Part shown: one piece after another, positions 6,055-9,165 of the stretch
Numbering within the stretch: the first letter of the stretch is position 1
How the letters are laid out: each line of letters begins with the position of its first letter
Assembly: GCF_008124605.1 (NCBI RefSeq)
Contig: NZ_VRYN01000001.1
Span: 546,772 to 610,771, forward strand
DNA from: Halobacterium salinarum DSM 3754
Lineage (GTDB): Archaea; Halobacteriota; Halobacteria; Halobacteriales; Halobacteriaceae
Length of the DNA stretch: 64,000 bases
Direction: 5' to 3'
Program-made: the position numbers and the translations under genes
The notes under the pieces: generated by a model
Told to the model about the DNA's origin: nothing
Databases searched by the model: none
The model's input: the letters and a program-made list of their open reading frames with translations, nothing else

Positions 6055-6900
6055 TCAGAGGGCGTCAGCGATGGCGGGCGCGGCGGACACCTCGGAGACG
6101 GCGCACTCGATGGTGTCGGTGCCGTAGACGGCCTCAACGCCGGCGCGCGCGAGCTTCAGGCGGGCGTTGCCGGCGAGCAGCGGGTGGACGGTGGCGACGA
6201 ACACGCGGGCGGGGTCGTCGAGCGCGGTGATGGCTTCGCTCATCGTGGTGCCGGTGGCGACGATGTCGTCGGTGACGACGACGTCGCGGCCGGCGGTCTG
6301 GATCTCACTGGGTTCGATGGTGACATCGCTGCCGGAGTGTCTGACCTTCTGGAAGTGATCGGTGACGCCGGTGCCATAGGCGTCCCGGACGCTGGTGGCG
6401 AGATCGGTCGCGCCGTGGTCGGGGGAGAGGAACACGGGGTCAGTGAGATCCGCGGGCAGCGGCGCGGCGAGCTGTGGCGCGGCGTCGACGCCCGCGGCAG
6501 GCACGTCGAAACACTCCAGGACGCCGTCCTCGTGTGGGTTGACCGTGAGCACGCGGTCGGTGCCCGTGGAGATGGCACGAGCGACCGCGCGCGCCGACAC
6601 CGGCTGGCCGGGGTCGAAGGCGTCGTCCTGGCGGGCGTACCCCATGTACGGCAGGACCGTGATGATCTCGGACGCGCCGGCGTCGCGGGCGGCGTCCTGG
6701 AGTTGCAGCACCTCGATGTGGGCGTCGCTGGTCTGCGTGGACGCCACGATGACCGCGCGCTCGCCGTCGACGGCCGGGGGAACGGTCACCAGCTGCTCGC
6801 CGTCCGGGAACGAGTCGTAGGTCACATCGCCGAGCCGCTCGCCGGTTGCGGCGGCGAGCGCGGCCGCGAGTGACTGACTCGAGGACCCGCTGAGTAACAT
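6055..6900 (-). CDS. prs: Ribose-phosphate pyrophosphokinase
   Basis: 281 residues, the short archaeal form. It makes PRPP from ribose 5-phosphate and ATP for nucleotide, histidine and tryptophan synthesis. Visible motifs: the N-terminal SFPDGEQ, the catalytic-flexible region PYMGYARQDDAF (about residues 105-116), the ribose-phosphate region around LSPDHGATDLA, and the PRPP loop VVTDDIVATGTT (about 212-223). A TATA-like GTGTAAG at about 6924-6932 on the minus strand puts the transcript start at or beside the ATG, supporting this start. The gene converges with the copper operon, with a 10-base gap between stops. Confidence 0.95.
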   Translation of the reverse strand: MLLSGSSSQSLAAALAAATGERLGDVTYDSFPDGEQLVTVPPAVDGERAVIVASTQTSDAHIEVLQLQDAARDAGASEIITVLPYMGYARQDDAFDPGQPVSARAVARAISTGTDRVLTVNPHEDGVLECFDVPAAGVDAAPQLAAPLPADLTDPVFLSPDHGATDLATSVRDAYGTGVTDHFQKVRHSGSDVTIEPSEIQTAGRDVVVTDDIVATGTTMSEAITALDDPARVFVATVHPLLAGNARLKLARAGVEAVYGTDTIECAVSEVSAAPAIADAL

Positions 6901-7093
6901 ACGCGAGTGGACTCGGGCCGGCGGCTTACACGTTTCCTTTGGCTGCCTGCGCGACCGCCGGGCGCGGGCTGCGCCGCGGTGTCGGTGCTTCGGCGTGGGT
7001 CTCTAATGGCGCGCTTGCCCCCCATGCGTTTCGGGTCAGAAAACCGCGAACGAGCGGAGAGTAGTAGAACGTGGTACTCGTATGGACGCGGAG
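6901..7093. other. Intergenic region before the tandem repeat
   Basis: Holds the prs promoter at its left end and no convincing gene. From about 7040 the text AGTAGTAGAAC then GGTACTCGTATG resembles the short block found just before each small membrane gene in the following repeats (AGTAGAATTTTTACTCGTATG). This could be the worn remnant of an earlier repeat unit whose gene was deleted. Confidence 0.4.
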
Positions 7094-7141
7094 GAAACGC
7101 GCGTGATCGTCGGAACCTGATGGTTGCGTCTGCCAGCGGCT

Positions 7142-7324
7142 GTGAACGTGCTTGAGCGAGATAGAGCAAGCGCAGCAAAAACGACAGCGTCGCTAATAAC
7201 CGCGCGTATGACGGAACCGCGGAACCGTTCGCTTAGGAACGCGAGGAACGGACCAACTCTGTTCGGGAGACTGGTGAGAGAACAACGAGCAGAGTGCGCT
7301 CGATACCGTAGACCATATCTTTGA
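7142..7324 (+). other. Open frame of 60 codons conserved in both repeat copies (coding status doubtful)
   Basis: A frame from GTG 7142 to a stop at 7322 is intact and of equal length in copy 2 (7726-7908). Four base changes separate the copies inside it, and by my reading three are silent. The predicted peptide is strongly basic (many Arg, ending YRRPYL), which is unlike haloarchaeal proteins and argues for a structural or RNA role instead. No good ribosome-binding site is visible. An inner ATG at 7208 (MTEPRNRS) is another possible start. Confidence 0.25.
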
Positions 7325-7428
7325 TCGGCGAGCAGATCAAATTGATGACTGAATTAACAGGCGCAGGGGCGTCATTTTCGGGTATCGGGATTCCGAAACG
7401 AAAGTAGGAAAGTAGAATTTTTACTCGT

Positions 7429-7593
7429 ATGTCATCAGAGAAAACTCTCGATATTATCGCCACCCTGAGTGTGTTGGCGATGGTGGCTACGTGGGCGCTT
7501 GAGGGGAAAGATTTGCTCCTGCTAGTAGCAGTAGCCTCTCTTATATTAGGACACATTACACGTAAATTTCGGACCCAGGCTTCTGATAAGTGA
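7429..7593 (+). CDS. Small membrane protein, repeat copy 1
   Basis: 54 residues starting MSSEKTLDIIATLSV. Two hydrophobic segments (about 8-23 and 28-43) are followed by a positively charged end (ITRKFRTQ). It is a paralogue of the protein at 8014-8178: the first 16 residues and the HIT/RKFRTQ tail are shared, while the second helix is strongly divergent. I do not recognise a family. The gene sits at the same point in a 584-base tandem repeat. The sequence before the ATG (CCGAAACGAAAGTAG) may hold a weak promoter. Function unknown; the pattern of constant ends and variable middle helix is noted as a finding. Confidence 0.55.
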   Translation: MSSEKTLDIIATLSVLAMVATWALEGKDLLLLVAVASLILGHITRKFRTQASDK

Positions 7594-7677
7594 GCGACAC
7601 GACTCCCGGTTAGGATACCATAACTGGACGTGCGGCCGAGAGTAGGGGATTGACTGAAGCGTCTCGGATAGCATCAA

Positions 7678-8262
7678 GAAACGCGCGCGATCGTCGGAAC
7701 CGTCTGATTTCGTCTGCCAGCGGCTGTGAACGTGCTTGAGCGAGATAGAGCAAGCGCAGCAAAAACGACAGCGTCGCTAATAACCGCACGTATGACAGAA
7801 CCGCGGAACCGTTCGCTTACGAACGCGAGGAACGGACCAACTCTGTTCGGGAGACTGGTGAGAGAACAACGAGCAGAGTGCGCTCGATACCGCAGACCAT
7901 ATCTTTGATGCGCGAGCGGATCAAATTGATGACTGAATTAACAAGGGTAGAGGCGTCATTTTCGGGTGTCGGGATTCCGAAACGAAAGTAGGGAACTAGA
8001 ATTTTTTACTCGTATGCCATCAGAGAAAACTCTCGATATTATCGCCACCCTGAGTGTATTGGGGATGGCAGCTACGTGGGCGTTGCAGGGGAAAGAATTC
8101 CTCTCAGCAGTAGTGATAGGTCCGATTATCTTATACCACATTATACGTAAATTTCGGACTCAGGGTTCTGATGAGTGAGCGACACGATCCCCAATTAGGA
8201 CATCATAACTGGATTCGCGGCCGAGAGTAGGGGATTGGCTGAAACGTCTCGGATAGCCCCCG
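7678..8262 (+). repeat. Tandem repeat unit, copy 2
   Basis: Second unit of the 584-base direct repeat. Order and spacing are the same as in copy 1, including the conserved upstream block (7712-8013), the small gene and the tail. The non-coding or doubtful-coding upstream block is better conserved than the membrane protein gene. Confidence 0.9.
8014..8178 (+). CDS. Small membrane protein, repeat copy 2
   Basis: 54 residues starting MPSEKTLDIIATLSV, with hydrophobic segments at about 8-24 and 30-45 and a basic tail (IIRKFRTQGSDE). It is the same length as its paralogue at 7429-7593. An in-frame upstream ATG at 7966 would add 16 residues, but the paralogue has no equivalent open start, so 8014 is preferred. 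No family recognised. Protein identity with the paralogue is high at both ends and low in the second helix. Confidence 0.6.
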   Translation: MPSEKTLDIIATLSVLGMAATWALQGKEFLSAVVIGPIILYHIIRKFRTQGSDE

Positions 8263-8300
8263 GAAAACGTACCTGATCGTCGGAACCTGATGATTGCGTC
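8263..8300 (+). repeat. Partial third copy of the repeat-unit opening
   Basis: This stretch (GAAAACGTACCTGATCGTCGG and the following CTGATGATTGCGTCT) matches the first 38 bases of copy 1 with a few changes. It marks the right end of the tandem array, directly before the stop of the beta-propeller gene. Confidence 0.75.
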
Positions 8301-8307
8301 TCGACCC

Positions 8308-9165
8308 TCACCGGTCGGGAGTGTGCCCGACGACCGTGACGGCGGCGGCGTCGGGCAGCCCGAGGCTGCGGTGGCGGGCGTCGCCGTCGCCGTCCACGAC
8401 GATCAGCGTCCCGGCTGCGGTGAGCAGGATCGTCGTGTCGACGGCGTACGTGGCGTCGACGACGCGGGCGGCGTCCGAGGGCGCGATGTCGCGACAGGGC
8501 TGCCATGCGTCGGTGCGGTGTTCGAAGCAGGCTTCGGGGGTGGCGGCGTGGGCGACGCCGGTCGCGCCCGGCGCGGCGGAGGCGGGGTCGGCGGCGACCG
8601 TGCGGAACGCCCCGGTGGCGGCTTCCCGCCAGCCGTTGCCCAGCGCGAACAACCCCTCGCTGGTGGCCGCGTGTGGCACGCCCGGGGCGGACACGTCGTA
8701 TGCGTCGTCCAGGCCGGCGTCGGCGAGACCGGCGTCGGTGAGCCGGTGGACGCCGTCGGTGGCGGCCACGAGGTCGGCGTCGAGCGCGCGAACGGTGGCG
8801 TCCGTGAGGACCGCGCGGTCGGTCCACGCGCCGGCGTCGGGGTCGTACTGGGCGATCCGGCCGTCCTCGTCGGCCGCCAGGACGGTGCCGTCGAAGCCGG
8901 TGACCGCGACGGCGGCGGGGAACCCGATGTCGGCGAACGAACTGTCCGGCGGTGCCGTCGACAGCACCACGCCGTCGGCGGTGGCGGCGGCCACGCCGAG
9001 CCGGGTGGCGGCGACGTCGCGGGCGTCACACCGGTGTTCGAGCGCGAACTCGCCGACAGTGCTGGCGCCGATGTGGGCCGCGGTGATGCCGAGGCCGGCG
9101 GCGATGTACGCCACGTGGGCGTCGGTGTCCTCGACGAACACGTGGTCGTCGCGAATGGCGGGCAT
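8308..9165 (-). CDS. Haloarchaeal beta-propeller-like protein of unknown function
   Basis: 285 residues, acidic, without signal peptide or membrane helices. The sequence is built of weak repeats of about 40-45 residues, each with a hydrophobic strand followed by AADEDGRI- or AATDGVHRL-like turns (for example VLAADEDGRIAQYDPDAGAW). This is the usual look of beta-propeller blades. It resembles the haloarchaeal family named after HVO_0234, an assignment made from memory and not verified. A TATA-like CACTTAG at about 9189-9196 lies 26 bases before the ATG, which fits a leaderless message. Role unknown; it could be a protein-interaction scaffold. Confidence 0.7.
   Translation of the reverse strand: MPAIRDDHVFVEDTDAHVAYIAAGLGITAAHIGASTVGEFALEHRCDARDVAATRLGVAAATADGVVLSTAPPDSSFADIGFPAAVAVTGFDGTVLAADEDGRIAQYDPDAGAWTDRAVLTDATVRALDADLVAATDGVHRLTDAGLADAGLDDAYDVSAPGVPHAATSEGLFALGNGWREAATGAFRTVAADPASAAPGATGVAHAATPEACFEHRTDAWQPCRDIAPSDAARVVDATYAVDTTILLTAAGTLIVVDGDGDARHRSLGLPDAAAVTVVGHTPDR

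Follow-up and report, generated by a model that had tools for sequence, protein, structure and literature searches.

E. coli LDR consists of three tandem copies, with a long 5′ UTR that contains a small ORF and a peptide product of 35 amino acids (PMC4147584). The system pairs a toxic membrane peptide with an antisense RNA (PMC4147584; PMC8309996), and several type I toxins carry cationic residues at the C terminus (PMC8309996). Here we analyze a tandemly repeated locus of the archaeon Halobacterium salinarum for which no published description was found in literature searches. On balance we lean toward reading it as a species-restricted, AT-rich orphan island that has been tandemly duplicated and partly homogenized by gene conversion and that carries a putative small membrane-peptide gene.

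The window, the whole 64,000-nt stretch of H. salinarum DSM 3754 DNA that was analyzed, contains two direct repeats in tandem, unit A (7094–7677) and unit B (7678–8264). Both are on the forward strand and are ∼585 nt long. Their start-to-start distance is 584 nt (585 counting one T insertion in unit B). Aligned over ∼584 columns, the two units show 66 substitutions and differ by 1 nt in length. Unit B is followed on the same strand by a third, partial copy corresponding to the first 38 nt of the unit (8265–8301; 89% identical to 7095–7131), which stops 6 nt short of the stop codon of the gene for an HVO_0234-like β-propeller protein (8308–9165, reverse strand; Pfam PF23366, E = 4.9e-89). The other flanking gene is prs, encoding ribose-phosphate pyrophosphokinase (6055–6900, reverse strand; Pfam PF13793 and PF00156), and the island adjoins the HVO_0234-like gene at its 3′ end and is upstream of prs. 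The HVO_0234-like protein ends in VVGHTPDR (8308–8330) and is shorter than in genome G006 (VVGEEHVTSDEDAA). Possibly the island took the place of the gene's last codons.

The GC content of the island is 0.51–0.52 versus 0.70 for the window, and a 300-nt scan identified 7021–8382 as the sole strongly AT-rich stretch. A transposase ORF is absent from the island, and a search of 7028–8301 found no inverted repeat of 10 nt or longer. The preliminary description of two 584-base direct repeats plus a third copy of 38 bases, in an AT-richer gap lacking a transposase, is borne out by these data. The eroded relic and the mosaic divergence reported below are additions to it.

An eroded older copy of part of the unit was detected at the left edge of the island (7028–7126, forward strand) by local alignment to 7382–7476, the stretch of unit A comprising the promoter-proximal region and the first 16 codons of its 54-aa ORF. 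The alignment score of 42 was reached by none of 2000 dinucleotide shuffles (best 35) and by none of 1270 other pieces of the window (best 32). The relic's in-frame reading is MDAEETRVIVGT, ending at a stop codon, and its counterpart in the 54-aa ORF is MSSEKTLDIIAT. Because 7028–7126 is a decayed homologue of 7382–7476, the true start of the island lies at ∼7028. Since the relic aligns with the start of the ORF, the 38-nt repeat that opens each unit appears to be derived from the start of an older ORF copy.

In most of the family loci measured, the gap between prs and the HVO_0234-like gene is 37–181 nt. Four larger gaps occur in the family (383, 703, 902, and 908 nt), none of which resembled the unit in DNA and protein searches. 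With the gap short or differently filled elsewhere, the 1.4-kb unit-bearing spacing is specific to H. salinarum among the sequences searched, and the insert is absent at the corresponding gap in relatives. In a related species (genome G003) the gap holds a 68-aa ORF with two predicted helices (locus L016, 2357–2563), oriented to prs as here; no similarity in sequence to the 54-aa proteins was detected for this ORF, nor any homologue in the other 25 family genomes searched. This gap may be a place in which small orphan membrane ORFs arise. Another genus has a gap of ∼900 nt (L027, 2275–3182, genome G024; L028, 2269–3170, genome G025) with an ORF of ∼270 aa (299 aa in the other genome), which by eye looks like an ArsR-type regulator; this is a further independent insertion between the two genes. 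The 383-nt gap of a third Halobacterium species (genome G004; L017, 2308–2690) is free of hydrophobic ORFs.

The unit was found at one locus only in its own genome. A bacteriorhodopsin encoded in this genome (100% identity across 248 residues) identifies the species as H. salinarum. No homologue was present in 12 other congeneric genomes or among GTDB contigs, plasmids, phages, and viral contigs. DNA and profile searches of 392 genomes of the order returned nothing beyond chance, a profile match lying within a 527-aa frame of genome G381 (E = 0.005) being rejected as expected by chance over that number of genomes. The survey sampled one genome per species, and among the sequences searched the unit is restricted to H. 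salinarum. The preliminary description had envisaged a young expanding family and had proposed searching haloarchaeal genomes with the 54-residue proteins and the 584-base unit; no copies were recovered elsewhere, in congeneric or order-level genomes, and the proposal is not supported.

Each unit carries a 54-aa ORF on the forward strand, ORF A at 7429–7593 and ORF B at 8014–8178, which are 69% identical. Two hydrophobic helices are predicted in each. Structure prediction from the two-sequence alignment gave, with moderate confidence (pLDDT 72, pTM 0.39), a helical hairpin with helices at residues 3–24 and 29–53 of ORF A. Differences between the two ORFs are concentrated in codons 28–44, corresponding to the second helix, in agreement with the earlier account of predicted membrane ORFs of like size with constant ends and a changed second helix. 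Searches of Pfam, NCBIfam, PHROGs, PADLOC, and the PDB (by sequence and by fold) returned no significant match for the ORFs and weak hydrophobic matches only. A 107-aa ORF on the reverse strand (7233–7556) was rejected, its frame being broken in unit B.

Divergence between the units is distributed as a mosaic. The 5′ leader (7132–7428 in unit A and 7716–8013 in unit B, both on the forward strand) is more conserved than the ORF, with 4 of 193 positions different across 7132–7324 (98% identity). The opening 38-nt repeat differs at 6 of 38 positions (16%), codons 1–16 of the ORF at 2 of 48, and codons 45–55 at 3 of 33. Between these two ends of the ORF is a hypervariable block (7477–7560, forward strand) in which 26 of 84 nt (31%) differ from unit B (8062–8145). 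The 3′ tail (7594–7677 in unit A, forward strand) is 16% different, with changes at 13 of 81 positions (leader versus tail, Fisher p = 5e-5). The longest run of identity between the units is 77 nt (p = 0.003), and the clustering of ORF substitutions in the second helix was equaled in at most 1 of 20,000 permutations in a scan test.

The 31 ORF substitutions fall at first, second, and third codon positions in the ratio 10/9/12, with no third-position excess, and dN/dS over the whole ORF is 0.62, a value not clearly lower than 1. In codons 28–44, dS is 0.69 and dN is 0.51, and with dS as high as dN there is no demonstration of diversifying selection. The divergence pattern is consistent with recombination acting locally, gene conversion in patches, or a relaxation of constraint rather than with selection at the protein level. 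For the identity of the leaders, constraint is an alternative to gene conversion, and two copies in one genome cannot separate them. The idea that the variable middle reflects diversification of a toxin or immunity peptide thus finds no backing in the substitutions, and an expanding family under diversifying selection is not supported, dN not exceeding dS in codons 28–44 and no other copies having been found.

From its sequence, the unit plausibly contains a small membrane-peptide gene. The principal alternative is that the island is non-coding and decaying, AT-rich DNA of foreign or intergenic origin that was duplicated and whose 54-codon frames are accidental. We consider this doubtful, but it accounts for several observations. 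Shuffling the unit still leaves a frame of at least 50 codons in 89% of cases. The GC3 of the 54-aa ORF is 0.45 versus 0.85–0.96 in genes of the window, codon adaptation is no better in the ORF frame than in the others, and codon usage is non-native in all of them. The absence of homologues and of codon-position bias among the substitutions is likewise as expected of non-coding DNA. However, both frames have stayed open across 31 substitutions, although random bases at the changed positions broke a frame in 69% of trials and left it open and equally hydrophobic in 5%. Both copies also retain two hydrophobic helices, and the relic has a matching start context. Among shuffled units, 2.6% contain a two-helix ORF of 50 codons or longer. 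These features argue for the membrane-peptide gene, for which the evidence of coding is nevertheless weak.

The start of this putative gene may lie further downstream than the first ATG. A TTTTTA box at 7418 is ∼11 nt ahead of the ATG at 7429, too near for the usual spacing of an archaeal promoter. It would suit a start at the ATG of codon 18 (7480), which sits just within the variable block and would yield a 37-aa single-helix peptide. The leader contains two further putative ORFs on the forward strand. The longer (MTEPRNRS...RRPYL; 38 aa, 7208–7324) is uninterrupted in each unit and differs between them at one residue, and its dN/dS of 0.17 derives from 3 substitutions only. The shorter (20 aa, 7345–7407) reads MTELTGAGASFSGIGIPKRK in unit A and MTELTRVEASFSGVGIPKRK in unit B (7929–7991). 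RNA folding of the leaders was no better than that of shuffled sequences for unit A (z = −1.2), unit B (z = −0.5), or the other strand (z = −1.3). Three candidate identities for the leader were rejected: a known structured RNA, the folds being at shuffle level and Rfam giving a chance match only (E = 0.63); an RNA conserved elsewhere, sequence-model matches in relatives being at background (E = 0.009–0.1); and the decayed remainder of a whole gene, 7127–7428 having no similarity to codons 17 onward.

These features of the leader bear on a second alternative, an LDR-like module in which each unit would be transcribed into an mRNA that has a long leader and encodes a small hydrophobic membrane toxin. 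The toxin would be restrained by an antisense RNA or through translational coupling to a leader ORF. The shared layout of tandem ∼0.5–0.6-kb direct repeats with a long, 98% conserved leader points in this direction, as do the small leader ORFs intact in both copies, the predicted short hydrophobic peptide with its cationic C terminus, and the single helix of the 37-aa product predicted from codon 18. Nevertheless, none of the toxin families in Pfam, NCBIfam, PHROGs, or PADLOC shows a sequence relation to the ORFs, the leader folds at shuffle level on both strands, a crude scan of the antisense strand found no TTTAWA-type box (5 of 6 positions or better), and the first ATG gives two helices instead of one. 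We regard an LDR-like module as improbable. An archaeal counterpart of LDR in the full sense, with tandem RNA-controlled small membrane toxins whose leader is constant and whose helix drifts between copies, would by this analogy be slightly less probable still.

A third alternative pairs the 20-aa ORF, as a secreted or signaling peptide, with the membrane protein as a co-diversifying immunity or receptor partner. In the 20-aa ORF the C terminus ASFSG(I/V)GIPKRK is constant and residues 6–8 change from GAG to RVE (4.5 nonsynonymous and 0.5 synonymous substitutions), and a helix of the presumed partner varies too. However, with five substitutions only this variation is not significant, nor is substitution clustering in the leader (p = 0.2–0.6). 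A degenerate motif of the 20-aa ORF had no match in 391 further genomes of the order, and no protease, transporter, or modification gene is adjacent. Such a pair is very unlikely.

Under the favored reading of a duplicated orphan island, the ∼585-nt unit of long leader, 54-codon ORF, and tail was doubled in tandem, most likely via unequal crossing-over, and the eroded start at 7028–7126 and the partial copy at 8265–8301 would be marks of older or incomplete rounds. After duplication the two copies would have diverged in mosaic fashion. Their leader and codons 1–16 would have been homogenized by gene conversion, held by constraint, or both, and the block of codons 17–44 would either have escaped conversion or been replaced. 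Translation of the ORF, if it occurs, would be from an mRNA whose leader is long and conserved, and the product would probably insert into the membrane as a hairpin of two helices, its ends both inside and its C terminus positively charged (RKFR). Functionally, a small membrane peptide regulated through the leader and a non-adaptive orphan ORF are the likeliest possibilities, the two not being separable here.

The analysis confirms a species-restricted tandem repeat and leaves the claims of an expanding family and a selected middle without support in the data. Expression of the ORFs would make the locus a compact example of how an orphan membrane-peptide gene originates, is duplicated, and diverges in a model archaeon. 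Control by an antisense RNA would make it an early candidate for an archaeal type I toxin-antitoxin system. Without expression of the ORFs, the locus is an ordinary repeat in decay. Transcriptome and ribosome-profiling data for H. salinarum already exist (for example, BioProject PRJNA448992, cited in PMC6523106), making the matter cheap to check.

Three described classes of element resemble the island. Like the MITEs of H. salinarum, which are non-autonomous insertion elements, it is short, AT-rich, and without a transposase. However, the island is a single locus with no inverted repeats of at least 10 nt and is therefore not a MITE; an insertion element is likewise rejected, no terminal inverted repeats having been found in 7028–8301 and no dispersed copies in the whole genome. 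Lineage-specific tandem orphan genes subject to gene conversion share with it neighboring paralogues, restriction to a single species, and mosaic identity, but here the ORFs are only putative and the diverged segment is a single 84-nt block with sharp boundaries. By analogy, the nearest known system in architecture is the ldr/rdl type I toxin-antitoxin system of E. coli, which likewise combines half-kilobase tandem direct repeats, a long leader that includes a small ORF, and a short hydrophobic membrane peptide, the last being only predicted for the island. The likeness is of layout only, without sequence similarity: the LDR peptide has 35 amino acids and one helix, whereas the Halobacterium ORF encodes 54 amino acids with two predicted helices in an archaeal host.
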